Positions 8,923 through 35,184 of a stretch of 35,184 bases of DNA are shown piece after piece. Origin of the DNA: a virus. A model generated the notes under the pieces. It ran no database searches. It worked only from the letters and a program-made list of their open reading frames with translations, and was not told the DNA's origin. The DNA lies in IMG/VR virus record IMGVR_UViG_3300046011_012344, positions 1 through 35,184 of that record. The stretch is one strand, 5' to 3'. Every line of letters starts with the position of its first letter. The stretch's first letter is position 1. The translations under genes were made by a program, and so were the position numbers.

Positions 8923-8934
8923 GCTCAAAAAAAA

Positions 8935-8943
8935 GTGTATTAA
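8935..8943 (+). promoter_or_regulatory. Putative late promoter motif GTGTATTAA
   Basis: GTGTAT at 8935-8940 lies 9 bp before the ATG at 8950. The same hexamer precedes other putative structural genes at 14430 and 14862 with a gap of 8 bp. A phage-specific late sigma-like factor could read it; no experimental support. Confidence 0.35.
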
Positions 8944-8949
8944 TCTGAT

Positions 8950-10112: not shown

Positions 10113-10196
10113 TTTGAAATAAAAACTCACGCCATTATAAAATTTAGTGTAAATTGCTGTATATTATAGTATATATAGCGCTCAAAATCTAAAATT
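10113..10196 (+). promoter_or_regulatory. Intergenic region with TATA-rich promoter-like tracts
   Basis: These 84 bp hold GTGTAAATTG near 10147 and then two TATA-rich tracts ending in TATATATAG about 20 bp before the next ATG. They resemble the GTGTATATATA motif seen at other structural genes but match it imperfectly. Probably a promoter region for the 10197 operon. Confidence 0.35.
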
Positions 10197-10850: not shown

Positions 10851-10855
10851 AGCTT

Positions 10856-14861: not shown

Positions 14862-16733
14862 ATGCAAGTTTTTTTACGTGCCCCCTCATTAGGTAATGAT
14901 ATTGGTCAAAGCTTCGAATTAAGTTCGGATTCAGGCTCAGTAAATCCTTCTATTATTAGTAGAGAAGAGTTAAATAATGGCGTAACTATAAACTTATCTA
15001 GTCAAAGCAGGATTATTACAATAAAATCAAACGGAGTAATAAAAAAAATAACTCAAGTTTCAATTAAAAGCAGCTGCTCTGATTTTATCTTTCCAGAGCT
15101 TACGCCTTTTACAAATACTCAGACGCCAACTGTAACGCCGACGAATACGCCTACGCCAGCCACACCGACTCCAACGCCGACGAATACGGCTACGCCAGCC
15201 ACACCGACTCCAACGCCGACGAATACGCCTACGCCAGCCACACCGACTCCAACGCCGACGAATACGGCTACGCCAGCCACACCGACTCCAACGCCGACGA
15301 ATACGGCTACGCCAGCCACACCGACTCCAACGCCGACGAATACGGCTACGCCAGCCACGCCGACGAATACGCCAACTCCAACGCCCGCTTTAGTAAATCA
15401 AAACTTTAATCCTAATTATATAATAAAAGTCACCTCAGCCGGAACATCAAATTATATTATCAACGGAACTGATAAAAACGGAATTATCTCAAATGTAAGC
15501 AATAGCTCTCTAAACTTTTATTCTGGCTCAAGAGTCAGATTCGAAATAAATGCGCCTGGTCACAATTTTTATATCAAAACTATAAATACTACCGGAACAA
15601 TCAACCAAGCTACTGGTGTCGTCAACAATGGAACCGACAACGGAACAATAGACTGGACTATTCCATCTATTTCCACGAATACAACTTTTTATTACAGCTG
15701 TCAGTTCCATACTTCAATGAGTGGTGAAATTTCAGCAAATACACTAACAGCAGTTGACAATACTAGACCTTTATTTAATTCTTCTTCATTTTCAAGTTAT
15801 CCAGTTGTATTGCCGCAAGGCGTTTCTAGAAATCAAGTCGAGATACCAGAGCCTTATTTGACCTATTTAAATCAAGCAATAGAAAGATGGTCTAGATTTA
15901 TTAAATTCAATCCTGCTGTCTATGATTCAATAAAGACGACTAATGCTAATTTTAACGGAATAAGCTTAGATCAAACTTGTGAGGGCGTGGGAAATCCTCA
16001 AAACGGATTCTATTTATATAATGATCCTTCTAGCAATGGCATTGCTTCTTGCGGCGTTTATTCTGCATACAACCTTGGTAGCCTCTCAGATATTCAATAC
16101 AATACAGAAACAATTTATTTTGATATTAATGACGCATTTAGGAATGTTTTTACTGACGAAGAATGGGTAGATGTTTTAACCCATGAAATGGGTCATGGAT
16201 TAGGAATCGGACAGCTTTGGACTTCATATATCAATAACGTAGATTGGGACGGCGACAACGTAGCTGATCCAGGAGCTGTTCCTCCTACTAATAGCTTTTT
16301 AAACGGAACTTATTATACCAATTGCAGAAATGGATATAGAAAACTAATAAATAATGGAACTAGCTATAATCAGATTCCATTAGAAGATACCGGAGGTCCC
16401 GGAACAAAAGATGCACATTTCGAAAATAATTACAGATCTTCTAGTTATTCTGGAGGGGCAGGGTTAACTTATCCGGGTCTCGAAAACGAGCTAATGCTTG
16501 GCGTTATAGTGCCAGGAGGCACCATGAGAATATCGTCCGTTACCATAGGCGCTCTTTTAGATTTTGGATACCAAGAAGTGAATCCAGGAAATAACGAGGG
16601 ACATGTTCATTTAAACAACGGAACGTCCGCATTATCTATTAAGGCTTCTGAAAGAATATTACCTAAAGCTAGATTTTACAATTGTTGCGATACGTCACAG
16701 AAGCCTATAATTAGGGGAACAATAAATATATAA
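14862..16733 (+). CDS. Multidomain protein: small N-terminal domain, Pro/Thr repeats, cupredoxin, leishmanolysin-like protease
   Basis: The 623-aa protein has four parts. Residues 1-75 match the whole of the 75-aa protein at 16743. Residues 85-176 are a TPTNTPTPATPTP repeat linker. Residues 180-292 look like a cupredoxin: APGHNF (H234) and YYSCQFHTSMSG (C280, H283, M286) supply the four usual type-1 copper ligands. Residues 310-580 are a leishmanolysin-like (M8) metalloprotease: HEMGHGLGIG with H441, E442 and H445, third ligand probably H519 in DAHFENNY, M545 in NELMLG as Met-turn, and a closing SVTIGALLDFGYQEV. The zinc site is intact, so activity is likely. No signal peptide is present; I infer a virion fibre or appendage enzyme that cuts surface protein during attachment. 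Promoter motif GTGTATATATA lies upstream. Confidence 0.8.
   Translation: MQVFLRAPSLGNDIGQSFELSSDSGSVNPSIISREELNNGVTINLSSQSRIITIKSNGVIKKITQVSIKSSCSDFIFPELTPFTNTQTPTVTPTNTPTPATPTPTPTNTATPATPTPTPTNTPTPATPTPTPTNTATPATPTPTPTNTATPATPTPTPTNTATPATPTNTPTPTPALVNQNFNPNYIIKVTSAGTSNYIINGTDKNGIISNVSNSSLNFYSGSRVRFEINAPGHNFYIKTINTTGTINQATGVVNNGTDNGTIDWTIPSISTNTTFYYSCQFHTSMSGEISANTLTAVDNTRPLFNSSSFSSYPVVLPQGVSRNQVEIPEPYLTYLNQAIERWSRFIKFNPAVYDSIKTTNANFNGISLDQTCEGVGNPQNGFYLYNDPSSNGIASCGVYSAYNLGSLSDIQYNTETIYFDINDAFRNVFTDEEWVDVLTHEMGHGLGIGQLWTSYINNVDWDGDNVADPGAVPPTNSFLNGTYYTNCRNGYRKLINNGTSYNQIPLEDTGGPGTKDAHFENNYRSSSYSGGAGLTYPGLENELMLGVIVPGGTMRISSVTIGALLDFGYQEVNPGNNEGHVHLNNGTSALSIKASERILPKARFYNCCDTSQKPIIRGTINI
15135..15358 (+). 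repeat. 39-bp in-frame tandem repeat encoding a Pro/Thr linker
   Basis: Units of 39 bp (13 codons, TPTNT(P/A)TPATPTP) begin at 15135, 15174, 15213, 15252 and 15291, and a shorter sixth at 15330. Copies are almost identical; they differ mainly at one codon (CCT or GCT). The repeat is clearly GC-richer than its surroundings and uses ACG and GCC codons. It separates the N-terminal domain from the cupredoxin domain. Confidence 0.95.
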
Positions 16734-23020: not shown

Positions 23021-23332
23021 ATGCTAAAAATACTTGAAAACATAAATGAATCTATTCCTGAAAATATTAAAATTGATCTAGGAAGAAGAGTGGCTACTTA
23101 CCCAACTAGCTTCATACAGTTCTCAAATAACCTTAAGCAGATAGTTTACAATAATAGCGAAATAAAAAAAAATCTATTTAAAAATAATGAAGATGCATTA
23201 TATTTCTCTGGAGATATTTTAGCTAAAACGTTTTACAATTTTTGGATAAAGGGTGGAGATTTAGAGCATCATTTTATTAATAGCGCAAAAGAGACGAGTT
23301 ATTACGCCGGATTTGAATGTCTTTGGAGCTAA
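23021..23332 (+). CDS. Hypothetical protein
   Basis: A 103-aa, mostly helical soluble protein (NINESIPENIKIDLGRR, NNLKQIVYNNSEIKKNLF) with an aromatic C-terminus (ETSYYAGFECLWS). No motif recognised. It converges with the glycosyltransferase on the other strand, their ends overlapping by four bases, so it is the last gene of the rightward operon that starts near 18.1 kb. Confidence 0.55.
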   Translation: MLKILENINESIPENIKIDLGRRVATYPTSFIQFSNNLKQIVYNNSEIKKNLFKNNEDALYFSGDILAKTFYNFWIKGGDLEHHFINSAKETSYYAGFECLWS

Positions 23333-24378
23333 AGTAATCTTTTCACCCATTTTTGATAATTAAATTTTTCCCACAACTCGGATTGTAAATCTTTTAATAA
23401 ATTTGTATGATCATCTCTAGAAAACTGATCCAGTAAATAAGATAATTGAACCATATTGTCACCAATAGTCTCTTCATCTTTTCCTTTGACTATTAGTTCT
23501 TGAGGATATAAGAATTCTCTTGGATATAACTCCCTATAAGAACAAAGTTCTCCGTCCGGAGCAAATGGTATAGCCCCATTCATTATTCCCTCTATCATAG
23601 AGTTTCCCCAGGTTTCATGTTGTGAGGTACTAAAAACAACTTTTGCGCTTCTTAATTCTTCCAAATATCTATCTCTTTTTTTTCCGTTGTCTCTTATAAT
23701 TTTACGAAAAATAGCTTCATGCTCTTTCATTTCTTTTGAATACGCGGCAGATAAAGCTTCTGGCGCGCAAACTGAAATTTTTCTTTTTACAAAATCCTGT
23801 AGCTTGAATAAAACCCAAGGATTCTTCTGCTTCTGCAATCTATGATTCCACAAGATATTTCTGTCTTTTTTTTGAATATTAAAATTAGGCTTTATAAAAA
23901 TAGGAATACCAACTATCTCTATTTTTTTTGCGTATAAACTTGGGATTTGGAGAGATAAGAAGTCGCCGAATGCCTTGCTACCAACGAAAACCTTGTCCGT
24001 CTCTGCAAGTCCCTGAGCTTCAATCTGCTGAATATCTGAAAGAGAGTCTTTGGAGAACATATTATTACCAGGCTCACCATCAAAAAACCTACTGCCACGC
24101 ATAAAACCATAAATATTAAAAACATTTCTTAATTCCTTTCTTCTATTATAGAATATATAATCATTTAAATTAACAAAAAACAAAGTTCTTCCTTTGTATT
24201 TGGAAGTATTATCCAATAATAAATCTAAATACTGATCCCTTAATTGTCCAGCTTTCGAATAATTCCCATATCCCAAATCTTTCCCAATGTACTCAAAACC
24301 TTCGGAGCCCTTTAAAAACTCGCTCATTTCGCGCGCCCAATTTAACCTGTAAAAATGAGGAATAAGTATATAATCCAT
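23329..24378 (-). CDS. GT-B glycosyltransferase (GT1/GT4-like)
   Basis: The 349-aa protein has a first strand MDYILIPHFYRLNW and, in the second half, NILWNHRLQKQKNPW (about 174-188). The donor-site motif follows as ETWGNSMIEGIMNGAIPFAP, with E255 and E263 forming the E-x7-E signature of retaining GT-B enzymes. It should transfer a sugar from a nucleotide donor, but donor and acceptor are unknown. I chose the ATG at 24378 over a TTG 33 bases upstream, because it places the first strand at the N-terminus. It is divergent from the gene at 24486; the shared 107-bp region carries promoter-like tracts for both directions. Confidence 0.78.
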   Translation of the reverse strand: MDYILIPHFYRLNWAREMSEFLKGSEGFEYIGKDLGYGNYSKAGQLRDQYLDLLLDNTSKYKGRTLFFVNLNDYIFYNRRKELRNVFNIYGFMRGSRFFDGEPGNNMFSKDSLSDIQQIEAQGLAETDKVFVGSKAFGDFLSLQIPSLYAKKIEIVGIPIFIKPNFNIQKKDRNILWNHRLQKQKNPWVLFKLQDFVKRKISVCAPEALSAAYSKEMKEHEAIFRKIIRDNGKKRDRYLEELRSAKVVFSTSQHETWGNSMIEGIMNGAIPFAPDGELCSYRELYPREFLYPQELIVKGKDEETIGDNMVQLSYLLDQFSRDDHTNLLKDLQSELWEKFNYQKWVKRLL

Positions 24379-24485
24379 GTTAATTTTTTTATTATATATA
24401 AAATAACTCAAATGTACATTTTTTTAATATAAAGTGTATATATTGGTATAATTGTTTAAAAACAACATTAAAAAGAAATAATATT
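24379..24485. promoter_or_regulatory. Divergent intergenic region with GTGTATATATT motif
   Basis: On the + strand GTGTATATATT starts at 24434, followed at 24447 by TATAAT; the + gene begins 46 bp after the hexamer. The - strand has a TATATATAAT tract shortly before the glycosyltransferase start. Probably promoters in both directions. Confidence 0.4.
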
Positions 24486-25838
24486 ATGGGAGAAAGAGTC
24501 TGGTTCGCTACAAGTAATTGGAAAGATAAACCCAATAAGCCGTCTTGTTATACGCAGGCTGAATGGGATGCTAGAAATTCTAGTAAATTTAATGGAGCAC
24601 CATTTGCTGGAAATTTCGCGTTTGATCCTACTAAAACAACAGTGAAAGGGCTTAGTCAAGCAGACTTTGATGCTTATAAAAATGCCGTTCAGGCAATAAG
24701 CCAGCCAGGCTGTCCATTTATTGGCTCACAATTAATGATAGCACAACAAAATCTTCCAAAACTAAAAGAAACAGACATACCAGTAACGTGTCAAGACGCC
24801 GAAATGAAAGTTTGGGACGGATCTACCTACTATGACAGATCAGGAGCAATCAAAACTTTTACATGGACTACGTGTAATAGTGGTAAATCGCGCAGCATGA
24901 CGATTGGAGTAGAAGATTTTAAAGCGCCAAGCGCAAGCACAAAAGCCTATATTCCTGTTTGCGGACCTGGGACACATATCAAAGAGATTACCAAAGACGA
25001 ATTAATGAAAATCGTTTGGCGAGTCGCAGAGTTTGATCTAGATGCTTCTGGATTTTCTGCAAAAGTTGATAAGGAATGGAGTATGAATCTATCTTCTTCC
25101 AATCCCTATAACAACTGCGACACTCAGTATTGGGCAAAAAGTAGTTGCACAGTTACAACTAGTAATAAAAACCTTGATCCTTCAAGTAGCAGCTTAGGCA
25201 AAGAGTCGGATATTGTTAAGTCAAAATGGGCTGCTTGTCCCGAAAGAGGATACACTGGAAAAGATTCAATGTCAGTGAGTAGCGTTGGTACTATATATAC
25301 AGATGGACCTTATGGAACGGGAAATGGAAACGTGACGGTTTCAGCTTCTCTTCCTTCTACGGCTTACAAATGTGGAAACATCGCTATGGTAGGCTCCGGA
25401 GAGGTAAAAATATCAATTAAACCATTTGCTGATAGACAACAGTATATTTATTTTGTACCTGATTCAGCTAGCGGGGTAGAAAAAATTTATTTTGACCCAA
25501 CTGGGTTATTTAATTTTTCAATAGTCTGTAATGGAGCAAATTATTATTTAGACCCAACTAACCAATCAGCACGATTTACCCTTACTCTTAACCTTCTAGG
25601 AAAAAATTATACCCTTAAAGTTTCAGGACCCCCAAATGGATCAAGTCAGATACCATTGACATTGGGAGCGGGAGGTGGTGGATGGGGTTTTGGTAATCAA
25701 TTTGGAACTCAAGCAATAGCTTTCACAAGCGGAACCGTTACAATATCTCCTAAAAAATATTATCCATACGCTAACTCTAAAGGTGAAGCTGTCTACGATG
25801 AAGATACTGGAGCCCAGCTCAAAGACCCGCTTAGCTAA
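24486..25838 (+). CDS. Putative virion/appendage protein
   Basis: A 450-aa protein rich in Ser, Thr, Gly, Asn and Tyr with scattered Cys, the composition of a beta-rich extracellular or virion protein. The N-terminal 100 residues are more charged and helical (LSQADFDAYKNAVQAI). Later parts have repeated strand-like runs (GNGNVTVSASLPSTAYKCG, FTLTLNLLGKNYTLKVSG) and a Gly-rich loop (LGAGGGGWGFGNQFG) near the end. No signal peptide or catalytic motif found. Its upstream motif GTGTATATATT groups it with the structural genes at 8.9-16.9 kb. It lies inside the glycan island and could be an acceptor of glycosylation; that is inference. Confidence 0.6.
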   Translation: MGERVWFATSNWKDKPNKPSCYTQAEWDARNSSKFNGAPFAGNFAFDPTKTTVKGLSQADFDAYKNAVQAISQPGCPFIGSQLMIAQQNLPKLKETDIPVTCQDAEMKVWDGSTYYDRSGAIKTFTWTTCNSGKSRSMTIGVEDFKAPSASTKAYIPVCGPGTHIKEITKDELMKIVWRVAEFDLDASGFSAKVDKEWSMNLSSSNPYNNCDTQYWAKSSCTVTTSNKNLDPSSSSLGKESDIVKSKWAACPERGYTGKDSMSVSSVGTIYTDGPYGTGNGNVTVSASLPSTAYKCGNIAMVGSGEVKISIKPFADRQQYIYFVPDSASGVEKIYFDPTGLFNFSIVCNGANYYLDPTNQSARFTLTLNLLGKNYTLKVSGPPNGSSQIPLTLGAGGGGWGFGNQFGTQAIAFTSGTVTISPKKYYPYANSKGEAVYDEDTGAQLKDPLS

Positions 25839-25893
25839 CAAGATTTATATAAATAATTTATTTTTTCTTTTATTAGTTTATAATATATAAACT

Positions 25894-26376
25894 ATGAAAG
25901 TTTATAAATTCAATTCTAGAAAAAAAATAAAATTATCTTTCCTTGCTGAACTCGGAATGGAAATGTTCGATGGAGAACTTTTTTTCAACAAAAAAGTAGA
26001 AGACATCCCTCCTACAGTAGTGGAGCTAGAGGGTTTAACTCTTCTAAAAACTATCGATTTTGAGTCAAGAAAGTTAGTTTTAGCAGATTTCCTTGAGACG
26101 GTTTATCCGTTAGTTTTATGGTCGGGAGAAGAATATGAAAGTAATTCTTGCTCTCCTAAAGTTAAAATAGAAGAAAGAATAACTGATTTGATAAATCATC
26201 CCACTAATGACTATGTATCTGAATTATTCAGCATTGTACCTAGTGATAAACTAAAATTAACAGAAGAAGAATATGCTTATATCCAAAAGGAGTACGATTT
26301 TGAGTTTCCATTACTTCCAGAGTCTCTTATTATTAGACCAAAAAGACCGACTCTTCCGCCGATGACAACCGCTTAA
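25894..26376 (+). CDS. Hypothetical protein following the appendage gene
   Basis: A 160-aa acidic protein. Its first part (KVYKFNSRKKIKLSFLAELG) resembles a small beta domain, the middle is helical, and the C-terminus is Pro/Arg-rich (RPKRPTLPPMTTA). No motif known. A TATA-rich tract (TATAATATATAAACT) ends at the ATG, and a TATAAATA lies about 40 bp upstream, so it may have its own late promoter. It converges with the sulfotransferase on the - strand. Confidence 0.55.
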   Translation: MKVYKFNSRKKIKLSFLAELGMEMFDGELFFNKKVEDIPPTVVELEGLTLLKTIDFESRKLVLADFLETVYPLVLWSGEEYESNSCSPKVKIEERITDLINHPTNDYVSELFSIVPSDKLKLTEEEYAYIQKEYDFEFPLLPESLIIRPKRPTLPPMTTA

Positions 26377-26390
26377 CCTATCCATTAAAA

Positions 26391-27323
26391 TTATAGGATG
26401 AAATCAAAAAGTTTATACTCGTATAACGTCTTTTCAGTTAATTTGCTAACGTAAAGTTTTTTAATACTTTCTGTTAATTTACCTTCCTCATAAGACCAAT
26501 AATTTTTATTATTTGAATTATAATTAGTTAGCATGTCTTTAAGTTTTTTTGGTACCTCTCTTAGAAAAGAGAATCCGTAATTTTTAAACGCTAAGTCTAT
26601 CATTTTATCTATTTCTTCAATGCGAAATAGTAAGAAGTTTTTTCTACTGATTAAAGATGCAACTTCAGAAAAATTTTTTTCTAAAAAGACATCTTCTTCT
26701 TCATTTAAAGAACAAAGCTGTCTTGCGATCCAATTATTGGGCGCTTCGTCAATAATAAACTCTTCAAATGTAGAAGAGCTGTACATTCCATGCGTAGGCT
26801 CATGCTTTGAGTTTTCACTTCTTAAGTAAAAAAATAAAGATTTAAGTCTTTCTACCGGGTCCCTAAGCGGAAAGTAAAATTTAAGAATATTTTCATTATT
26901 TGAGCAAACAATGTTTTCAAATATTTCATATTTTAAATACTTTAATCCTCTCGGTTGCGCTATCGCTGAAAAGATATCAATATCACTAATTATATTTTTA
27001 ATTTTTTTATCTGACAAATCTATATAATATACGTATTCATCCAATTCTATTAAATTATATTTTTCTGAAAGGTTTAGGATTTTATCAGTAGAAAAAATTG
27101 TAAAAACAGTTTTCTCGTCCTCTTGAATATTTATCTCTCTTACTGGAAACTTTTTTCCATGACGATAAATAAATCTAAAATCGTCGCTATTAGAAAAATT
27201 TAAAGAATCTAAGTCACATATTCTATTAAGAAAAAATCTTGCGGCAGCTCTAATTGAATTATAAATATATGTACCGCCACTTTTTGGTATATGAATAAAT
27301 ACTGGGATATTTTTAGCTATCAT
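26391..27323 (-). CDS. Sulfotransferase-like protein (family 2 type)
   Basis: The 310-aa protein has the 5'-phosphosulfate-binding loop at its N-terminus (FIHIPKSGGTYI, residues 9-20) and a 3'-phosphate-binding segment FPLRDPVERLKSLFFYL starting at 151 (R154, R159). These are the two PAPS-binding elements of carbohydrate sulfotransferases. Between them is a longer insertion (about 35-140) than in compact family members. It would transfer sulfate from PAPS to a sugar hydroxyl. No signal anchor is present, so it acts in the cytoplasm. The GT-A-like gene at 27343-28110 lies upstream on the same strand, 19 bp away. Confidence 0.75.
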   Translation of the reverse strand: MIAKNIPVFIHIPKSGGTYIYNSIRAAARFFLNRICDLDSLNFSNSDDFRFIYRHGKKFPVREINIQEDEKTVFTIFSTDKILNLSEKYNLIELDEYVYYIDLSDKKIKNIISDIDIFSAIAQPRGLKYLKYEIFENIVCSNNENILKFYFPLRDPVERLKSLFFYLRSENSKHEPTHGMYSSSTFEEFIIDEAPNNWIARQLCSLNEEEDVFLEKNFSEVASLISRKNFLLFRIEEIDKMIDLAFKNYGFSFLREVPKKLKDMLTNYNSNNKNYWSYEEGKLTESIKKLYVSKLTEKTLYEYKLFDFIL

Positions 27324-27342
27324 TAGTACCCTAATAAATATA

Positions 27343-28110
27343 TTAAATGAATTTTAATAAATCATAGTTATTTATTATTATATCTGCTAAAGAGCCATCC
27401 TTGCATCCGTGAACAACTAATGTTTTATTTATTTCTATTTCTTTTTTTTCTATGTCTTTTTGTCTTCCTATATCAAAAGGAATATGTCTTTTTTCAAAAG
27501 AAAAAAGCCTACCATTATCAAGTTTATAATTTTGCGTTTGAAAATAATTTAGCATTTTATCAGAGTCAAATGCTTGGTATTTTATTATTTCAGCGCTGCA
27601 AATAATATCAAAAGCCAACTCGCTATTGTGAATCCATTTCCAGTTATTTGTATAATCACTTATATTAGGCGGATATACTGCGCAGCCCGATAAATGAAAA
27701 GGGTATTCGTAGCTTGCCTCAGATACGCATCCAAAAAACGGCTTACCGTAATAATTGTAATCACTCTCCATTTCATCTAGCCAATTATCTTTAACTGGAG
27801 TTACATCTGACTCCATCCAGTACCAAGGGATTTTATTATTTATTTTTTTTAAAAATTTAATTGTTTCTCTCCAATAAGCATTAGGACCATGAGGCCAGCC
27901 AGTTTTAACATTTTCGTCAACAATACAGTCTTGGGCCGCTTTAAAAAGAAAGTAAATTTTTTCTTTTACTGAGTTTGCCAATTCCTGATCTCTACTTTTA
28001 TATACAAACAGTACTTCGTGGTTAAAATATGGTCCAAAAAAGTTTAATATATTACAAAATTTATCAGATATAGTTTTATCTGATTCTGAAATAGGTATAA
28101 CTACAAGCAT
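27343..28110 (-). CDS. GT-A-like glycosyltransferase candidate
   Basis: The 255-aa protein starts with a classic first strand, MLVVIPISESD, then has HEVLFVYKSRDQEL. A WPHGPNAYWRETIKFL stretch is followed by PWYWMESDVTPVKDNWLDEM, where ESD at 100-102 stands in place of a DxD metal/nucleotide motif. GKPFFGCV and HLSGCAVYP complete the active-site half, and HGCKDGSLAD lies near the end. This is a GT-A pattern that I associate with phage and bacterial glycosyltransferases. I chose the ATG at 28110 over a TTG at 28134, because the longer version would put eight residues before the strand. Confidence 0.65.
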   Translation of the reverse strand: MLVVIPISESDKTISDKFCNILNFFGPYFNHEVLFVYKSRDQELANSVKEKIYFLFKAAQDCIVDENVKTGWPHGPNAYWRETIKFLKKINNKIPWYWMESDVTPVKDNWLDEMESDYNYYGKPFFGCVSEASYEYPFHLSGCAVYPPNISDYTNNWKWIHNSELAFDIICSAEIIKYQAFDSDKMLNYFQTQNYKLDNGRLFSFEKRHIPFDIGRQKDIEKKEIEINKTLVVHGCKDGSLADIIINNYDLLKFI

Positions 28111-28157
28111 AAATATACTATATTCAGAAAACAATATTTTTATATTTTTTTAAAAAA

Positions 28158-28168
28158 GTGTATATATT
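28158..28168 (+). promoter_or_regulatory. Putative late promoter motif GTGTATATATT
   Basis: GTGTAT at 28158-28163, continuing ATATT, lies 16 bp before the ATG at 28180. It is identical over 11 bases to the motif at 24434. Confidence 0.42.
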
Positions 28169-28179
28169 AGAATCAATAT

Positions 28180-28689
28180 ATGAAAAAGCTAAATATTATA
28201 ACCGGAACTGCGGTATCTTATGGATTACAGCAAAATATGGAAGCCCTAAATTTATTATTTATGGCAATGACAGATAATGGATTGCTTTTCAAAAGCAGGA
28301 ACTTTGGCGAGTCCTTATTAGAATCAAGGAAAGAAATAGATCAATTCGGCTTAACAGAAGAAGTAATATATAACAATTATGAAAATTATGTGTTTCCTAT
28401 TAGAAGCGCTCATATTTTAAAAAATCTCAAAATAGAAAATATTTCTTATAAAGTCATTAATATAAAAAATTTAAGCCCTACTCTTCTCGCAAAAGAAAAT
28501 CCACATTTATCAGAATCCGGGAAAATAGCGCAAAAAATAAGTCTAGAACTTGCAGAAAAATCAAATAATTTCCTAGAAAACGAATACTCCGAAGCTTTAT
28601 CAAATACCTCAACTTTTGAAGTGTTAAATGTATCAGTTGATGATTTAAATAATAAGCTTTCTGAGATAATTTATTTTTTTAAGAACTAA
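28180..28689 (+). CDS. Hypothetical protein within the glycan island
   Basis: A 169-aa soluble protein. It starts with a strand (KLNIITGTAV) and continues mostly helical (GLQQNMEALNLLFMAMTDNG, ESLLESRKEIDQFGLTEEV). It is surrounded by - strand glycan genes and has its own GTGTATATATT motif, so its expression is probably late. No catalytic motif or family recognised. Confidence 0.55.
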   Translation: MKKLNIITGTAVSYGLQQNMEALNLLFMAMTDNGLLFKSRNFGESLLESRKEIDQFGLTEEVIYNNYENYVFPIRSAHILKNLKIENISYKVINIKNLSPTLLAKENPHLSESGKIAQKISLELAEKSNNFLENEYSEALSNTSTFEVLNVSVDDLNNKLSEIIYFFKN

Positions 28690-28699
28690 AGACTCTTTA

Positions 28700-29323
28700 C
28701 TAAAAAGAATATTTAAAAAAATCTATATCTTTAGAATAGATATTCGATATAATCTTTTTACTGTTTAGACTATAATAGGTTTTATAGTCAGAGATTCGAC
28801 CAATGGTTTGGTTTTTTTTTGGTATACAGTCAAGATTAATCTGAGGAGCTTTCAAAATTTCCAAACATTTCAAAAAATCATTTTGATAATTTTCATGTCT
28901 TATTATAAAGTCTATTTCCAGGCTTTCTGTTTCTCCAAACATGTAGTAAGAAAAATCTCTACAGAATATTTTTATTTCAAACTTATCAATATATTCAATA
29001 AATTCATTAAATCCTAGACTTAAAACAGCATTTTGGATTTGATTTTTAGGCTTATTATTTTTTTCTGCCAATAAAGCCTTTTGTTTTAAGTGAAAGTACC
29101 AGGAAACCATTCTATCCCATGGGTTCCTTATAATTGAAATTTTTATAAAATCATTAGGATTATTACTTGTTTTTTTAATTGCTTTTACATGATCTATTAA
29201 ACTTGCATGTTTGTATAAAAAAGCGTGTTCGCCATGGTTTTCAAAACCCAAAAAATGCTCAAAACTTGTCCCGCCGCATTTTGGAGGATGGGTGAATATT
29301 ATTTTACGAGTAAGACAGAACAT
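28700..29323 (-). CDS. Sulfotransferase-like protein
   Basis: The 207-aa protein has the PAPS loop FTHPPKCGGTSFE (PPKCGGTS at 13-20) and the 3'-phosphate site ISIIRNPWDRMVSWYFHL (IRNPWDR at 65-71). A later block DFIIRHENYQNDF and a C-terminal RISDYKTYY are shared with the + strand gene at 30172, so the two are paralogues. This is the compact bacterial sulfotransferase type that sulfates sugars. It starts 25 bases inside the end of the WcbI-like gene, so the two are translationally linked. Confidence 0.82.
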   Translation of the reverse strand: MFCLTRKIIFTHPPKCGGTSFEHFLGFENHGEHAFLYKHASLIDHVKAIKKTSNNPNDFIKISIIRNPWDRMVSWYFHLKQKALLAEKNNKPKNQIQNAVLSLGFNEFIEYIDKFEIKIFCRDFSYYMFGETESLEIDFIIRHENYQNDFLKCLEILKAPQINLDCIPKKNQTIGRISDYKTYYSLNSKKIISNIYSKDIDFFKYSF

Positions 29324-30096
29324 TCTGATAAATTTACCTTCGGTAAATATTTTCTAAAAAATAAAACGGTTTTTTCGTCGAAAAAAGAATAACGGGTAGG
29401 ATAAGTTATATTTTTTAATTTTAAATTATCTAATTTTTCTTCTAAATGTACGAATAAATTTTTTATAAGTTCAAAAAAATAATCCCCCGACGGATGGTTC
29501 CATTGCGCAAACAAAAGTTTTTCTTTCCATTTTTCCTCTATAAATTTATTCATATCAATATTATTCTTATAAATTTCAAAATTAAATTTATTTCTATTCG
29601 TATTTTCTTTCATACAGCGCTCAAAAACGCTATTTATTATTGTCCAAACCTCTTCTTTATTTTTTTTATCCAAAAGGTTAAAAACTTGCTCTTGGGATAA
29701 ATGATCTAAATCAGATATAGTCTTACTGTACTCGCCAATAGACCTATCGCATATAGGATAAGCTAAAAATCTAGGATTGGGCAGGCGGATAGATATTTTT
29801 TTTAAAAAATAATTAGTATATAAATATTCTGACTTTAATTCGTCTATCGACGAAGTTACATCCTGAAATAAGAAAATATCAGCCTCTTCTGCTTTTTTTA
29901 AAATTTGCTTGTAGAAATATTTCTGCCTTGGTATATTGTCTCTATGTTGTACGCAAAACGCTTTAGAGCTATAAAAGTAATTAATTCCGCAGTCTTTTGA
30001 GTCTATTACGTCGAATTTTTCAGAATAGTTTTCGTGCAGCCATTTACCAATTACGCTCAAATGACAATTTCCATAAAGTAAAATTTTTTTTTTCAT
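29299..30096 (-). CDS. WcbI-like polysaccharide biosynthesis protein
   Basis: The 265-aa protein begins LLYGNCHLSVIGKWL (the WcbI hallmark is 'yGNCq...l...l'). It continues with IFLFQDVTSSI, a LPNPRFLAYPICDRS segment matching 'fPn..f.gy.P', and NHPSGDYFFELIKNLF with N200-H201-P202. WcbI-family proteins act in capsule formation, probably as acetyl- or acyltransferases, and are often encoded next to sulfotransferases. The protein is soluble, without a signal peptide. It overlaps the sulfotransferase by 25 bases and is divergent from the sulfotransferase at 30172. Confidence 0.72.
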   Translation of the reverse strand: MKKKILLYGNCHLSVIGKWLHENYSEKFDVIDSKDCGINYFYSSKAFCVQHRDNIPRQKYFYKQILKKAEEADIFLFQDVTSSIDELKSEYLYTNYFLKKISIRLPNPRFLAYPICDRSIGEYSKTISDLDHLSQEQVFNLLDKKNKEEVWTIINSVFERCMKENTNRNKFNFEIYKNNIDMNKFIEEKWKEKLLFAQWNHPSGDYFFELIKNLFVHLEEKLDNLKLKNITYPTRYSFFDEKTVLFFRKYLPKVNLSECSVLLVK

Positions 30097-30171
30097 TTTA
30101 TCTTAATAAGTCAAATGATCTAGTTTTTATTATATATAGTTAGTAAAAAATATATAATCTAATAGATAAAA

Positions 30172-30702
30172 ATGGTTATAGAAAATTTAGTTTTTATTCA
30201 CCCCCCAAGATGCGGAGGCACATCAATAGAAAAATCATTTGGCTGGCAAAACGAATCGGAAAAACACCTTAGAGCTTCTTCTATAAAAAAAAACATAGGA
30301 GAAAAGCAGTGGAATAAATCATTCAAGTTTGCGGTAATTAGAAATCCGTTTGATAGAGTTATTTCTATGTTCCATGCGCGCTGTTATAGAAAATTTAGAA
30401 AAGGTATAGAATTTGAGACTTTAGAACAGTTCTTGTCTTTTATTCCTCGCATTCCAACAGAAGAAGGTATACAATGTAGCGACTTTATAAATGAGGATAT
30501 AGATTTTATAATAAGACATGAAAGCAGAAACAGCGACCTAGAAAAACTTGATGAGGAATTTGGTATAAAAATAGATAAAAACATAAATATAAGACAAACT
30601 AATCGCCATAAGGACTATAGAATTTATCACAATAAAAATACCATCGAATTGGTAAAACTGAAATTTAAAGATGACATTGAAAAATTTGAATATGAATATT
30701 AA
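30172..30702 (+). CDS. Sulfotransferase-like protein
   Basis: The 176-aa protein has FIHPPRCGGTSIE (PPRCGGTS at 11-18) and FAVIRNPFDRVISMFHAR (IRNPFDR at 56-62), the two PAPS-binding elements. It also has DFIIRHESRNSD and HKDYRIYHNKNTIELV, which match the paralogue on the - strand at 28700. It is about 30 residues shorter than that copy. Residues 63-110 are more basic (ARCYRKFRKG), which may shape acceptor choice. The next gene starts right after the stop. The 75-bp gap upstream is shared with the divergent WcbI-like gene and has TATA-rich tracts. Confidence 0.82.
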   Translation: MVIENLVFIHPPRCGGTSIEKSFGWQNESEKHLRASSIKKNIGEKQWNKSFKFAVIRNPFDRVISMFHARCYRKFRKGIEFETLEQFLSFIPRIPTEEGIQCSDFINEDIDFIIRHESRNSDLEKLDEEFGIKIDKNINIRQTNRHKDYRIYHNKNTIELVKLKFKDDIEKFEYEY

Positions 30703-31404
30703 ATGAAAATATATACTTTTTATGAAAAAGTTTTCGATAAACAGGATGGGCTTATAGATCTATGGAAAAAAAACTGGAGAAGAAAAGGGTTTGATCCTAT
30801 TGTATTATCAATAAAAGACTCTGAAAAGTCCTCGCTTTTTGAAGAATTTTCTAAAAAAATAAATTTAATACATAGATATATTGTAGGCGAAAATATATCA
30901 AGATACGGATTGGCTTGTTATTATAGATGGATCGCCTATTCCCTTCAAGACAATGAAGAAGCATTTTTAGTTTCAGATTACGACATAATAAACATAAATT
31001 TCAAGATAGAAGACTGCGAATATAAATATGGAAAAATATCTTTTTTAAACAGATTTTGCCCATGTTTAGCTTTAGGAAAATCAAATGATTATAAAACTTT
31101 TGTTGAAGATATTCTTTCTATTTCTGAAAAACACTTATTGGAATTAAAAAAAAATTTTAATTCTTCAAAATTTATACAATATCATGATCAGGAATTTCTA
31201 TCTTTAAATAGCCATAGATTGAATTATAATTTTCATGATCCGCAGAAAATTGTTAGATTATATAGATGTAACGAAGAAATTAAAAACCAGAAAGTTTTAC
31301 ATTTTTCTCATACTTCTATTTATGAATTTAAAAAAATATTTCAAAAATACGCCCAAGATGATGAAGAGGAACTTAGGATCAAATTAATTAAATCTATTAT
31401 ATAA
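30703..31404 (+). CDS. GT-A-like glycosyltransferase candidate
   Basis: The 233-aa protein opens with KIYTFYEKVFDKQDGLIDLW and has a FLVSDYDIININF segment (residues 88-100). Its SDYD corresponds to a D-x-D-like metal/nucleotide-sugar motif at the end of the fourth strand in GT-A enzymes. YYRWIAYSL shortly before it is also typical of this group. C-terminally, VLHFSHTSIYEF would close the active site with a His. Donor unknown. It starts directly after the sulfotransferase stop, so the two are co-translated and may act on the same glycan. Confidence 0.6.
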   Translation: MKIYTFYEKVFDKQDGLIDLWKKNWRRKGFDPIVLSIKDSEKSSLFEEFSKKINLIHRYIVGENISRYGLACYYRWIAYSLQDNEEAFLVSDYDIININFKIEDCEYKYGKISFLNRFCPCLALGKSNDYKTFVEDILSISEKHLLELKKNFNSSKFIQYHDQEFLSLNSHRLNYNFHDPQKIVRLYRCNEEIKNQKVLHFSHTSIYEFKKIFQKYAQDDEEELRIKLIKSII

Positions 31405-31409
31405 ATATA

Positions 31410-31916
31410 ATGAAAATAGCATTAGTATCAGGCTCGCCAAGATCAGGCACGTCAGCCATGATGAGGTTGCTCGGAGAATCTGGCGTACCGTTGTTCTTTT
31501 TAGAAGAAAGCCGTCCAAGAGACGAAAACAATCCGCTAGGATATTTCGAAAATCCACTAGCCAGACAAACTATCTACATATCGCAAAACACAGATGAGTA
31601 TATAAATGCGATTCAAGGTAAGCTTTCTAAGCTTGCGATGTCTAAGTATATTATTAATCTTCCTACTGAGCACACCTACTATATTATATGGATGGAGCGC
31701 GACCCAATGGAGAGCGCCATATCTTTGTCAAAATTAAAAGAAAATCCATTCAGTATAGATAAAACGGCTTATTTAATAAATCAAGACAGAAATATGGCAT
31801 TATTGTATATGAATATGAATAAGAATAACTTTAATATTCTAAAAGTACCTATGAAAAATCTTAGTGATTATATTTCTATTGCAAAAAAACATATTTCTCC
31901 GGCTATTGAATTTTAA
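31410..31916 (+). CDS. Sulfotransferase-fold protein, divergent
   Basis: The 168-aa protein has a P-loop-like PAPS site VSGSPRSGTSAMMRLL (PRSGTS at 10-15), then DENNPLGYFENP, a segment frequent in bacterial sulfotransferase-family proteins. The 3'-phosphate site WMERDPMESAISLSKL (ERDPMES at 96-102) has the usual Arg before Asp-Pro. It differs from the HPPxCGGTS type of the paralogues and is a separate subfamily. It could be a sulfotransferase or a nucleotide-binding relative. Its ATG follows TATAAATATA at 31400, and it lies five bases after the GT-A gene. Confidence 0.68.
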   Translation: MKIALVSGSPRSGTSAMMRLLGESGVPLFFLEESRPRDENNPLGYFENPLARQTIYISQNTDEYINAIQGKLSKLAMSKYIINLPTEHTYYIIWMERDPMESAISLSKLKENPFSIDKTAYLINQDRNMALLYMNMNKNNFNILKVPMKNLSDYISIAKKHISPAIEF

Positions 31917-31927
31917 ATAAAAAAAAC

Positions 31928-31956
31928 TTGACTCAAAAATCAAGAAGTACTATATT
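31928..31956 (+). promoter_or_regulatory. Leaderless sigma70-type promoter
   Basis: TTGACT at 31928-31933, exactly 17 bp, TATATT at 31951-31956, then six bases to the ATG at 31963. This is the best match to the repeated architecture and probably starts the transcript that continues into the tRNA genes. Confidence 0.65.
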
Positions 31957-31962
31957 CAAATC

Positions 31963-32202
31963 ATGTCAACCAAATACCAACTTAAAAAACTCAACAACCA
32001 AACTCTGGACAAGCTACAAGAAAAAGCCAAGCGGCGCTCTAGTCTTAAGCCTATCAAAAGCTGGAAGCTTACTTGTATCGAAAAAGTCCCAGCCGCGATT
32101 GGTCGCTCTATCTCTATTGAAGCCCGCGACTATATTCAAGCTCTGGAACACGCTCTTTATGTAGCAGGATTTTCCCTTGAAAAAGAATTAAAAAAGGCAT
32201 AA
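31963..32202 (+). CDS. Small basic hypothetical protein upstream of tRNA cluster
   Basis: A 79-aa protein with a basic N-terminal half (KYQLKKLNNQTLDKLQEKAK, then RRSSLKPIKSWK) and a helical C-terminal half (SIEARDYIQALEHALYVAG). Its basic character could mean nucleic-acid binding. A competing frame at 31928-32164 lacks a comparable start site and would place its start codon in the -35 box. The leaderless promoter fits this ATG. The tRNA-Arg gene begins 11 bp after its stop, so mRNA and tRNAs may be on one transcript. Function unknown. Confidence 0.6.
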   Translation: MSTKYQLKKLNNQTLDKLQEKAKRRSSLKPIKSWKLTCIEKVPAAIGRSISIEARDYIQALEHALYVAGFSLEKELKKA

Positions 32203-32213
32203 TTTAAAATTAT

Positions 32214-32290
32214 GCGCTCTTAGCTCATCTGGATAGAGCAACAGCCTTCTAAGCTGTGGGTAGCTGGTTCGAGTCCAGCAGAGCGCGCCA
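32214..32290 (+). tRNA. tRNA-Arg (TCT)
   Basis: The acceptor arms GCGCTCT and AGAGCGC pair fully, with G discriminator and encoded CCA. The anticodon loop CTTCTAA on an ACAGC/GCTGT stem gives TCT, reading AGA, a frequent Arg codon in this AT-rich sequence. The T arm GCTGG-TTCGAGT-CCAGC is normal. Confidence 0.93.
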
Positions 32291-32313
32291 AAACTTTAAT
32301 AAATGAAAAAAAT

Positions 32314-32399
32314 GACGATATGGTGTAATGGCAGCCACAAGGGTCTTAAAAACCCTTGCCTTAACGGGCGTGAGGGTTCGAGTCCCTCTATCGTCACCA
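32314..32399 (+). tRNA. tRNA-Leu (TAA)
   Basis: The acceptor GACGATA pairs with TATCGTC, discriminator A, encoded CCA. The anticodon loop CTTAAAA between AGGGT and ACCCT gives TAA, reading UUA. A long variable arm, as expected for Leu, lies before the T arm GAGGG-TTCGAGT-CCCTC. Confidence 0.92.
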
Positions 32400-32405
32400 A
32401 TTTTA

Positions 32406-32499
32406 GCAAGGTTCGTATAACTGGAAGTACCGACGAGCTTATACCTCGTGTGTCCTAGATGTGGACCGAGCGCAGGTTCGATTCCTGCACCTTGCACCA
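32406..32499 (+). tRNA. Class-II-shaped tRNA with anticodon TAT
   Basis: The acceptor GCAAGGT/ACCTTGC, discriminator A, encoded CCA, D arm with GG, and T arm GCAGG-TTCGATT-CCTGC are all intact. The anticodon stem ACGAG/CTCGT encloses CTTATAC, so the anticodon is TAT (reads AUA, Ile). Unusually, about 22 nt separate anticodon and T arms and contain a GTCC/GGAC stem, a long variable arm normally found only in Leu, Ser, Sec and bacterial Tyr tRNAs. Identity is therefore uncertain: an Ile tRNA with an atypical arm, or another class-II tRNA with a changed anticodon. Confidence 0.8.
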
Positions 32500-32506
32500 A
32501 TTTAAA

Positions 32507-32580
32507 TGCGCTTAAAGCTCAATGGTCGAGCGGCCTGCTCATAACGGGAAGGAAGTAGGTTCGATTCCTACTAGGCGCAA
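32507..32580 (+). tRNA. tRNA with CAT anticodon (Met, or Ile2)
   Basis: The acceptor TGCGCTT pairs with AGGCGCA (one G-U pair), discriminator A. The anticodon loop CTCATAA gives CAT. The D stem GCTC/GAGC and the T arm GTAGG-TTCGATT-CCTAC are intact. The outer anticodon-stem pair is G-A. Unlike the other three, no CCA is encoded. The sequence could be an elongator Met tRNA or an Ile2 tRNA needing lysidine. Confidence 0.85.
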
Positions 32581-32604
32581 ATTTTCCAATTGCTTAAAGA
32601 TGGA

Positions 32605-33597
32605 TTATGATGTTCCGCATGACAATTTAACCATTACTTGTTTGATGGTCATCCACATATCTAAATATTTATAAGTAGCTAGTCTCCCCAAGAACAATAC
32701 ATTTTTTTCAGAGTCGGCGAGTTTTTTGTATTTTCCGTAAGTTCCAACTCCGTCGCCAAAAGTAATCGGATAAAAAGGAATGTCCCCATGCTCATAAGCT
32801 TTTGGATACTCTCTGGTAATAATAGTCACGCCTTTATGGTCAGGAGTAAAGTAACTATGATCATATTTTCTTGTATAGTCATTATACTTTGTATTATCAT
32901 TAATAACAAAGGTTTCTTGCTTTTTACTGGTGACAGTATGATTGAAGGTTAAAGACCTGTATGGAAGCTGCCCATATTTATTCCCATAATACTCATCTAT
33001 TTTGCCAGTATAAATAGTCAAATCAGCTTTATGTTTTCTCCATTCTGATTGCTCAACGCCAAGGTTGACCTTTATTCCATCAAGCATATTGTTCATCATA
33101 TAGGTGTATCCATACTTAGGAATGCATTGATACTTCTGTCCCTCAAACCAAGTTGGATCTTCGCAGTCTTTAGCTTTTGGTATTCTTCCAGTAATTGCGG
33201 AGGAAATTTTCTCAAATGGAACCCCCCATTGCTTTTCCGAGTAGTCTTTAAATAAAAATTCCACAATTTCTTTTTCATTTAATTCTCTGCCTATTTGCTG
33301 AATAGTTTTTTTACTATAGGGCAATGATATTTTTCCAAGATAAGTATTACCAACAGGTCTAAGTAGAAAAGGGGTCCATTCAGTATATCTGCTCAAAAAA
33401 GAGAAAACTTCTTCATCATCTGTATGAAATATGTGAGGTCCGTAATTATGCAATAAAACCCCATTTGTGCTACTATCATAACAATTGCCGCCAATATGAG
33501 GTCTGGATTCAAAAATCTCCACATCATGCCCAGCATTCTTAGCTATTATTGCCGCTGTTATTCCAGAAAGTCCGCATCCTATGATTTTTACTTTCAT
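32605..33597 (-). CDS. glf: UDP-galactopyranose mutase
   Basis: The 330-aa protein starts with a flavin-binding Rossmann motif (GCGLSG at 7-12, with E30 ending the second strand) and has the mutase signatures IGGNCYD, GPHIFHTD (53-60), YSEKQWG, YQCIPKYGYT and FLGRLATYKYLDM. This flavoenzyme interconverts UDP-galactopyranose and UDP-galactofuranose, supplying Galf for surface glycans. It is somewhat shorter than the E. coli protein (367 aa), mainly at the C-terminus. It lies 12 bases downstream of a GT-A glycosyltransferase on the same strand, a likely user of the Galf donor. Both are in the cytoplasm. Identification is safe. Confidence 0.93.
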   Translation of the reverse strand: MKVKIIGCGLSGITAAIIAKNAGHDVEIFESRPHIGGNCYDSSTNGVLLHNYGPHIFHTDDEEVFSFLSRYTEWTPFLLRPVGNTYLGKISLPYSKKTIQQIGRELNEKEIVEFLFKDYSEKQWGVPFEKISSAITGRIPKAKDCEDPTWFEGQKYQCIPKYGYTYMMNNMLDGIKVNLGVEQSEWRKHKADLTIYTGKIDEYYGNKYGQLPYRSLTFNHTVTSKKQETFVINDNTKYNDYTRKYDHSYFTPDHKGVTIITREYPKAYEHGDIPFYPITFGDGVGTYGKYKKLADSEKNVLFLGRLATYKYLDMWMTIKQVMVKLSCGTS

Positions 33598-33609
33598 TTC
33601 TTTTAATTT

Positions 33610-34452
33610 TTATCTTTTTCGTTCCGCTATCATCCGGTATTCTTCAAGCACGTTAGAATTATCCATGTAATCCCTCTGAGTCCAAAAAGCAAAATGACAA
33701 CATAGCACCTGACCATATATGGCATTTATTAAGTTTTTCTGCATAGGCCAATGTATAGTCAAGAATTGTTCCTCGCATCCGATTGAGTCCCAACCTCCTG
33801 GAACTTCTACCTTTGCCATATGTTTGCCAAGCCATGAAGTACAGTTAATAGAGAATCTCTCGTTATGAATCAAGACCCATTTATTAAATTTGTAATCATC
33901 CAATGAACTAAGGTGAAATTTTTCTAGAAAATTCCTGTGTTTTAATTCTGCGAAACGAGGCGCTGGTGAATCAGGAAGTATCGAATGCCCATGACCAATA
34001 GAACAATGCGAACTGTAATCAACTACTCCATTATTAAAATCTAGTGCACCAATTTTTTGGTGAATATGATCGCAATTTGCGTTATTGATAATATTTGGAA
34101 AAATTAAAAAGTATTCTGGATTTTCTAATCTGAATTTGGAAAGTTTCTTGATGAAGTCATCCTCCATCCACACAATATCATCATCAAATCTTATGTATAA
34201 AGTTTCGGAATCTCTTGCATGTTTAAAAAATGAAGAAATTGACTGACATCCGCCGAACTCCACGCCTAGATCAATAGTTCTAATCCACGAGTTTTCCCTT
34301 TCTAGTTTTTTACAATATTCTATATCTGGCTCATGTAATGTATTAACCCATAGAGTCCATTGGTCAAAGTCCGCTTTTTGAGATTTCAAATGTAAAAACA
34401 ATACTTCTAAATATCTTTGTCTTCCTGCGGGCGTTACTATTTCTATTTTCAT
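33610..34452 (-). CDS. GT-A glycosyltransferase
   Basis: The 280-aa protein has a short first strand (KIEIVTPAGRQRYLEVLFLH) and the DxD-type motif YIRFDDDIVWMEDDF (FDDDI at 89-93), which binds metal and nucleotide sugar in GT-A enzymes. WDSIGCEEQFLTIHWP in the last third probably holds the catalytic base region, and the C-terminus is polar. The next gene encodes UDP-galactopyranose mutase, so a galactofuranosyl donor is plausible; that is inference. On its strand, GTGTATATTATTA lies 17 bp before the start codon, similar to the putative late motif. Confidence 0.75.
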   Translation of the reverse strand: MKIEIVTPAGRQRYLEVLFLHLKSQKADFDQWTLWVNTLHEPDIEYCKKLERENSWIRTIDLGVEFGGCQSISSFFKHARDSETLYIRFDDDIVWMEDDFIKKLSKFRLENPEYFLIFPNIINNANCDHIHQKIGALDFNNGVVDYSSHCSIGHGHSILPDSPAPRFAELKHRNFLEKFHLSSLDDYKFNKWVLIHNERFSINCTSWLGKHMAKVEVPGGWDSIGCEEQFLTIHWPMQKNLINAIYGQVLCCHFAFWTQRDYMDNSNVLEEYRMIAERKR

Positions 34453-34547: not shown

Positions 34548-34742
34548 TCAATCTCGTATGCTTCCCTCGGACATATTGAATAACCTAGGATAGTGACAAT
34601 ATTTAGATAAAACTCTTTTGCATTTTTGAGTATATTTTTTTTGAAACAATGAATTGCGCGCCGGGCAGTTTTCATACATTGCTACATATAAATCTATTAA
34701 TTGCAATATGCAGATTAAAGACTTTCTATATATATAAATCAT
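34548..34742 (-). CDS. Possible small Cys-containing protein
   Basis: A 64-aa frame with an ATG at 34742: hydrophobic start (YIYRKSLICILQLIDLYVA), then a basic Cys-containing part (ENCPARNSLFQKKYTQKCKR, SKYCHYPRLFNMSEG). A shorter form would start at ATG 34679. The second part looks protein-like, which argues against pure chance, but there is no coupling to a neighbour and no known family. It may be a gene remnant. Confidence 0.32.
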   Translation of the reverse strand: MIYIYRKSLICILQLIDLYVAMYENCPARNSLFQKKYTQKCKRVLSKYCHYPRLFNMSEGSIRD

Positions 34743-35184
34743 TTTATTTGTATAAATAATAAAAAATCCAGCGCGGCTTGAAGTTTTTTAAAAATTTTTT
34801 ACTCTAGAACCCGCTTCTTCAACGTCCCCCAACAGCCTCTTCAACTACCACATTTTAACCCTATATTCCAATGATCTTTTGAATAGATAAAATATACCCC
34901 TGTACGTAGGGGAAATTACAAAAAATGAATAGATAAAACAAGAGAAGAAAAGGTATACTAAATAAGAGTAAAACTATATAAGGAATAAAGGATAAACAAT
35001 AAGAGAATATATAAGAGAATGAATGTATTTGTTTGGATATTAAAAATTGATTAATAATATTTCGATTTATATAATTTTAAAATAAAGTCAAGCAAAAATA
35101 ATTTTATACAAAATAAATATTTCATTATACTAGGGCTTTTTCTTATTTACCTACTATGAAAATTGCTTTATAGTGCTAAAGTGG
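34743..35184. other. Non-coding purine-rich region with direct repeats and a hairpin
   Basis: No convincing gene is present in these 442 bases. The left part has TTGAAG and CTTCAA arms and a C-rich stretch near 34810-34850. A 13-bp direct repeat, TGAATAGATAAAA, occurs at 34880-34892 and 34926-34938. Between them lies CCCCTG-TACG-TAGGGG at 34897-34912. From about 34920 to 35030 the + strand is very purine-rich (AAGAGAAG-type runs). It could be a regulatory or replication-related region, or the leader of a gene beyond the window. Confidence 0.5.
34880..34938. repeat. 13-bp direct repeats flanking a UACG-loop hairpin
   Basis: TGAATAGATAAAA at 34880-34892 and 34926-34938 is identical. The hairpin CCCCTG (34897-34902), TACG loop, TAGGGG (34907-34912) lies between them. 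An RNA from the + strand would carry a UNCG-type tetraloop, closed by a G-U pair. The core AATAGATAAAA also occurs just before the sulfotransferase start at 30172. Confidence 0.7.

Follow-up and report, generated by a model that had tools for sequence, protein, structure and literature searches.

Sulfotransferases and glycosyltransferases in a phage gene island: a recurring module that may serve a sulfated glycan

Why should a phage carry several sulfotransferases among enzymes that handle sugars? The question is raised by a linear virus record of 35,184 bases in IMG/VR (IMGVR_UViG_3300046011_012344), which was analysed at its full length and is called the window in the following. An earlier note, made from the sequence alone, had described an island of sulfation and glycosylation genes between positions 23329 and 34452, and all the genes it named are intact open reading frames at the positions given below. 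The computation establishes the enzyme families, the folds of two of the proteins and a gene module that recurs at variable genome positions and is restricted to viruses. The region is best read, with a probability of roughly 0.5, as a mobile cassette by which the phage makes a sulfated and perhaps acylated glycan that contains galactofuranose and most likely sits on virion appendages.

Sulfotransferases and sugar enzymes of the island

Four sulfotransferase-like genes had been suggested for the region, and three are upheld, two of them by Pfam profile and one by predicted fold; the fourth is probable from its motifs. The first, stB (28700-29323, minus strand), matches Sulfotransfer_2 (PF03567) with an E-value of 3.7e-13 and 50.6 bits, and a second gene of this type (30172-30702, plus strand) matches it with 1.4e-7 and 32.3 bits, both above the cut-off of 22 bits. 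Since both also match PHROG 3347, 'Galactose-3-O-sulfotransferase' (E 3.5e-13 for 28700 and 2.5e-16 for 30172), they belong to an already catalogued family of phage sulfotransferases. They are not the close paralogues that they had been taken for. The two proteins are 31% identical and lie apart in a quick tree with long branches, where 28700 groups with a protein from L020 (support 95) and 30172 falls elsewhere, in a different subfamily; a duplication of 28700 into 30172 is rejected on the same evidence. (Here and below, G numbers denote comparison viral records, and L numbers denote loci cut from such records.)

The remaining two, 26391 and 31410, reach no Pfam cut-off. The product of stA (26391-27323, minus strand) belongs to a family that is not in Pfam, and its AlphaFold model is confident (predicted local distance difference test, pLDDT, 82; predicted template modelling score, pTM, 0.83). 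The best fold match is heparan-sulfate 2-O-sulfotransferase (Z 12.4, root-mean-square deviation 3.9, 231 aligned residues), followed by 6-O-, N- and 3-O-sulfotransferases, which rank above the cytosolic SULTs; the top rows range from Z 12.4 to 8. The likeness to the 2-O-sulfotransferase structures (4ndz, 3f5f) spans residues 1-310, but the identity is 14%, and the protein is that of a bacterial virus with a conserved SxHE..H segment of its own. Among 23 aligned members of the family K14, R154 and S162 are invariant, the motifs being HIxK..G.Y and R...S, and three of the 23 match PF03567 at E 0.01 or below. The motifs of the 5'-phosphosulfate loop and of the 3'-phosphate site (Arg...Ser) also match in 28700, 30172 and 31410. 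The last of these, st3 (31410-31916, plus strand), scores 21.3 bits against Sulfotransfer_3 (PF13469), under the cut-off of 27; it contains both motifs of the site for 3'-phosphoadenosine 5'-phosphosulfate (PAPS), SGSPRSGTS and ERDPMESAIS, is 38-41% identical to a homologue in L121, and is a probable small sulfotransferase. Judged by sequence and, for 26391, by modelled fold, 26391, 28700 and 30172 are predicted PAPS-dependent carbohydrate sulfotransferases, and 31410 is probably another.

The gene gtA1 (27343-28134, minus strand), 19 bases upstream of stA, encodes a protein with no Pfam match. One of five models of it was confident (pLDDT 76, pTM 0.80, parts being under pLDDT 50), and its structure matches are filled by GT-A proteins (Z 12.6 to 10.6, about 200-230 residues aligned). 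E108-x-D110, at the DxD-type metal-binding position, is invariant in eight sequences of its family. The trio of GT-A-like proteins proposed earlier is thus upheld by predicted fold for 27343, while the other two are probable, from a motif or a weak PHROG match. These are gtA2 (30703-31404, plus strand), whose DYD motif (D92-Y-D94) is invariant in 11 sequences of its family and which occurs fused in other phages, and 33610-34452 (minus strand), which has an FDDD motif read from the sequence and matches PHROG 4447, glycosyltransferase, with E 0.0011. The GT-B-like glycosyltransferase gene at 23329-24411 (minus strand), the left neighbour of the island, is intact as described, and its support from Pfam is sub-threshold (PF00534, E 0.018); homologues with 81% (G001) and 55% (G003) identity have the same place.

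The gene at 29299-30096 (minus strand), which overlaps stB by 25 bases, was rightly called WcbI-like: it matches PF18588 with E 8.5e-7 and 29.3 bits, barely above the cut-off of 29.2, and a stretch of G004 reaches 39.5 bits. The match covers most of the family model and includes the N-terminal YGNCH/YGSCQ motif and the NHP segment found in WcbI of Burkholderia pseudomallei (4bqn, 4bqo), and the profile of the 29299 family finds 4bqn weakly (E 0.011). WcbI of B. pseudomallei binds coenzyme A (CoA), while acetyltransferase activity was not shown (PMC4104973). From its sequence 29299 is a putative CoA-dependent acyltransferase. Searches with single sequences gave little: when 26391, 28700 and 29299 were compared with solved structures by phmmer, only chance-like matches came back (spectrin SH3, farnesyl pyrophosphate synthase, a superantigen-like protein), viral scans with 28700 and 29299 returned nothing, and the families were reached by alignments only.

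The UDP-galactopyranose mutase at 32605-33597 (minus strand), which would supply UDP-galactofuranose, is confirmed by GLF (PF03275, E 1.2e-50, 172.5 bits) and, in its Rossmann part, by NAD_binding_8 (65.4 bits). Against the NCBIfam equivalog TIGR00031 it scores 252.6 bits and does not reach the cut-off of 303.75, and a mutase-like function is likely. Such a mutase is found in the vicinity of sulfotransferases in 15 of 80 loci selected for sulfotransferases and five of 25 selected for stA, and in none of 79 selected for gtA1, a distribution that hints that the sulfated glycan contains galactofuranose. In L055, L063, L069, L071, L092, L097 and L106 sulfotransferase genes are followed by a mutase about 60% identical to that of the window. 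No genes for capsule export or polymerisation (Wzx/Wzy, ABC transporter) were recognised among the open reading frames of the window, where no dedicated search for them was made.

A recurring module at a variable position

Five of these genes recur together in other viral contigs. Profile searches of the open reading frames in about 200 loci found gtA1-stA-stB-gtA2-wcbI complete, co-linear and on one strand in a 217-kb viral contig (G011; L029), where it lies among tail-fibre-like genes. Subsets of the module occur in L016, L017, L018, L019, L020, L035, L037, L043, L045, L050, L060, L124, L125 and others. All 24 cases in which gtA1 adjoins stA, duplicates counted, have stA directly downstream, and none has it upstream. 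The window keeps this order with its 19-base gap, as well as the overlap of wcbI with stB, and the remaining part is encoded on the opposite strand. In some loci two of the enzymes are fused into one protein, gtA1 with gtA2 (L019, L039) and gtA2 with stA (L138; E 5e-73 and 3e-58), which argues for a functional linkage of the steps. An hhalign comparison of two family alignments (A4 and A5) recovered only the fused gtA2 half and was uninformative on homology between gtA1 and gtA2. The relative of 31410 in L121 (L121:835-1635) has an extra C-terminal zinc-ribbon-like segment, C..C...GxCxxCGC..AK...CP.G.W, and the same segment precedes gtA1 in the L019 fusion (L019:6016-7995). Four proteins directly upstream of gtA1, including that at 6735-7217 of L127, match PHROG 13558, possibly the zinc-ribbon-like segment.

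The strand switches had been taken as a sign of piecemeal growth. This view is weakened by the five genes forming a recurring module of fixed order elsewhere, while the variable genome position and the distribution of the window copy over both strands agree with it. The density of sulfotransferase genes, which had been thought unusual for a phage, is not: other viral records carry 5-10 Sulfotransfer_2 stretches. At least four such stretches, some of them sharing a frame, were found in 14 of 44 viral records, with a maximum of ten; these records were chosen for holding a sulfotransferase or related gene, and therefore attest to the existence of dense clusters but give no measure of their frequency. 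G036 has nine stretches in 52 kb and G020 six in 4.3 kb. In the huge phage LR756508.1 a 12-kb stretch contains about five sulfotransferase-like genes, three consecutive ones of the stB type and two with P-loop motifs, beside GDP-sugar genes.

The phage DNA around the island is shared with three IMG/VR contigs, G001 (L007/L008), G002 (L011) and G003 (L009/L010), the best-conserved backbone genes having 65-97% protein identity. In G001 the homologues of 23329 and of 31963 are only 83 bases apart, and the block 24486-31916 is missing. At the nucleotide level the window matches G001 on either flank, at 23036-24374 (78%) and 34723-35157 (73%). The stretch 26391-31916 is the AT-richest, with 28.0% GC compared to 34.1% for bases 1-24411. 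Related genes lie elsewhere in the relatives: stA is found between homologues of 1519 and 2230 in G001 and L028, the mutase (66-67% identical) between homologues of 3670 and 3885 in G001 and G002, and G003 has, in a separate cluster, GT-like genes and two proteins of the Sulfotransfer_3 type. From these differences in place it follows that the cassette is mobile among the phages of this group.

The gtA1 family is virus-restricted. It has 170 confirmed relatives among viral contigs, none in 50,697 GenBank phages (two queries) and one in 84,980 prokaryote genomes, a contrast between viruses and prokaryotes that is approximate, as the peptide patterns used to scan the genomes differed from those used for the viral contigs. 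The sole prokaryotic carrier is a short contig from a Bacteroidetes bin, the other genes of which match phage tail or virion families, and 394 further genomes of the same phylum gave none. In these 395 genomes stA has a strong match only in that phage-like contig, plus three marginal ones, and it was not found in GenBank phages.

Some features of the region lie outside the module. The block that G001 lacks begins with an orphan protein of 450 residues (24486-25838, plus strand), a possible virion protein with no Pfam or PHROG match that is absent from G001-G003, followed by an orphan of 160 residues (25894-26376, plus strand) with no Pfam match. A protein of 169 residues and unknown function (28180-28689, plus strand), also with no Pfam match, separates the two minus-strand blocks. 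At the right edge of the sulfotransferase block relative to G001 lies a small conserved backbone gene (31963-32202, plus strand), the homologue of which in G001, beside that of 23329, is 55% identical. A hotspot with an array of four tRNA genes (Arg, Leu, Ile, Met; ARAGORN) follows at 32214-32580 on the plus strand; G003 has three isotypes at the same place, its array being directly after the GT gene. In G001 a PP-loop protein resembling TilS, the tRNA-Ile lysidine synthetase (L007:8334-8993; PF01171, E 2.4e-32), adjoins the tRNA hotspot. An RNA ligase of the T4 type is encoded at 2230 of the window.

GenBank phages held no close relative for those window proteins that were tried, the nearest relative of one backbone gene being in the 595-kb uncultured phage LR756511.1 (44%). 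Shine-Dalgarno-like sites precede two of 42 window genes, and the upstream regions are A-rich and G-poor (window 1-34452). Such a near absence would suit a host among the Bacteroidota or Cyanobacteria. A promoter pattern of the Bacteroidota type is not enriched in the window (0 found, 1.7 expected), and no host is therefore claimed.

Sulfate donor and target of the proposed glycan

A chemistry of sulfated glycans is well supported and is the most economical reading of the named families and folds. The GT-A enzymes 27343 and 30703, perhaps with 33610 and the backbone GT-B enzyme 23329, would assemble a short sugar chain, for which galactofuranose would probably be supplied via the mutase 32605. 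The chain would be sulfated at different positions by 26391, 28700, 30172 and probably 31410, and 29299 may acylate it. We infer that the enzymes share one glycan, that it is located on the virion and that the phage benefits. The glycan would most likely be attached to tail fibres or adhesins, where it might alter host recognition, charge or resistance to surface defences.

PAPS and nucleotide sugars would in the window phage come from the host, a dependence on host PAPS that the earlier note had also proposed. No gene for PAPS synthesis was recognised among the open reading frames of the window, which was not searched by profile, and no APS (adenosine 5'-phosphosulfate) kinase was found in G001 or G003. 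The phage contig G050, which has the gtA1 family, encodes CysD and a bifunctional CysN/C of 629 residues (L205:4901-7731; record 8901-11731). The two, which lie between genes of baseplate-like and tail-fibre proteins, amount to a complete PAPS synthesis. The uncultured huge phage LR756500.1 has a full-length APS kinase of 180 residues (L204:6795-7337) about 21 kb from its sulfotransferase, and the same pair is found in the IMG/VR contig G027. Weaker APS kinase matches in six other records cover about 90 of 152 positions and may be other kinases. The genes cysC and cysH are known from freshwater phages, and those with cysC have larger genomes (PMC10914622).

Tail or fibre proteins are often encoded beside gtA1, which favours the virion as the target. 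Several observations weigh against the proposed virion glycan. Tail families are also frequent at least five genes from gtA1, so that the virion context is regional and not module-specific, and only the regional claim is made. No glycan acceptor was identified, and 24486 and 25894 are at best candidate virion proteins. Tracts rich in Thr, Ser and Pro, which are possible acceptors, occur in seven of 122 sulfotransferase loci and two of 66 others, and are thus not clearly commoner. Furthermore, the module of the window is split over both strands, a recognised sulfotransferase is present in just 12 of 80 gtA1 loci, and G050 has no match to Sulfotransfer_2 or Sulfotransfer_3. A fibre-like protein of the window (14862-16733) has a 39-base tandem repeat at 15134-15364 that codes for TPTPTNTATPA; its mucin-like Thr/Pro tract is not supported as a general acceptor by the locus counts above. 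Similar tracts are found in L011 and in L019, in the latter directly upstream of the module.

The main and serious rival is that the enzymes serve, during infection, to remodel a glycan of the host, whether of capsule, lipopolysaccharide or S-layer, for instance to block superinfection or to release progeny from receptors, a reading that has a substantial minority of the probability. Surface polysaccharides typically involve UDP-galactofuranose and acylation. WcbI and sulfotransferases modify polysaccharides of the bacterial cell surface, WcbI itself being from a capsule locus (PMC4104973), and the backbone GT-B genes have been kept throughout the phage group irrespective of the module. The recurrence of the module among tail-fibre-like genes, however, favours the virion. 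So does the near absence of gtA1 and stA in bacterial genomes; seroconversion genes, by contrast, usually have close relatives in the host. The earlier note had named both a virion glycan and the host surface as targets of an island of this kind; the island and these two alternatives are borne out, and the choice of the virion is an interpretation.

That the sulfotransferase fold is kept for a target other than a glycan, such as a small molecule or peptide tyrosine, or that activity is lost, appears improbable. The shortness of 31410 and the great diversity of PF03567-family members in phages would fit, but the PAPS-site residues are conserved in 23 stA homologues, a sulfotransferase is fused to a glycosyltransferase in L138, and the closest folds of 26391 all act on polysaccharide. 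Slightly less probable still is a modification of phage DNA bases, of which examples reportedly exist among phages (PMC10829341). A dCMP deaminase-like (19440) and a DUF6065/dUTPase-like protein (22196) are encoded nearby, but glycosaminoglycan sulfotransferases are the nearest fold matches of 26391, a polysaccharide is suggested by the WcbI-like protein and the mutase, and among the open reading frames of the window neither a base hydroxymethylase nor a hypermodification kinase was recognised. It is hardly credible that the contig is a chimera of a phage and a bacterial capsule locus, a concern raised at the outset: the lower GC of 26391-31916 would agree with it, but backbone DNA matching G001 lies on both sides, the module has relatives in many independent viral contigs, and the virus-restricted gtA1, like stA, is nearly absent in bacteria.

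Known phage sulfotransferases and what the module may mean

Neither sulfotransferases nor glycosylation islands are new in phages, and sulfotransferases are common in environmental phage genomes. They have been reported as auxiliary metabolic genes in relatives of OM43 phages (PMC10580990), in viruses from glacier ice (PMC8290583) and in Stenotrophomonas phage DLP6, and a 2023 paper states that their function remains unclear (PMC10580990). What is shared with these PHROG 3347 proteins is the sulfotransferase family in a phage genome. In the parts of those reports available, however, the sulfotransferase genes are described by themselves, while here several of them form a module with two glycosyltransferases and a WcbI-like protein and are also fused to a glycosyltransferase. 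The huge phages LR756500.1 and LR756508.1 have clusters of Sulfotransfer_2 and sugar-modifying genes, and the former its APS kinase, but the stretches read contain no gtA1/stA/wcbI module, and their proteins are about 30% identical to 28700. The cysC and cysH genes of freshwater phages are likewise genes of PAPS metabolism; they have been ascribed to assimilatory sulfate reduction (PMC10914622), whereas the phages described here suggest glycan sulfation as another use. In the open-access literature searched, no description was found of the module, its fusions or the two virus-restricted families.

A module of fixed partners, fusions of glycosyltransferases with sulfotransferases and PAPS synthesis by phages together make a testable proposal, namely sulfated glycans on virions or host surfaces, and a likely fold and role can be given for two virus-restricted families that have no Pfam entry. 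Tentatively, and with less confidence than the cassette itself, the module may be a dedicated virus-restricted system that puts a glycosaminoglycan-like sulfated glycan on tail fibres, in some phages with a PAPS supply of their own. To our knowledge, phage sulfotransferases have so far no defined function, and this would be the first. If true, a surface chemistry familiar chiefly from the glycosaminoglycans of animals would exist in phages too, with relevance to receptor binding, phage stability and the use of sulfur by phages.

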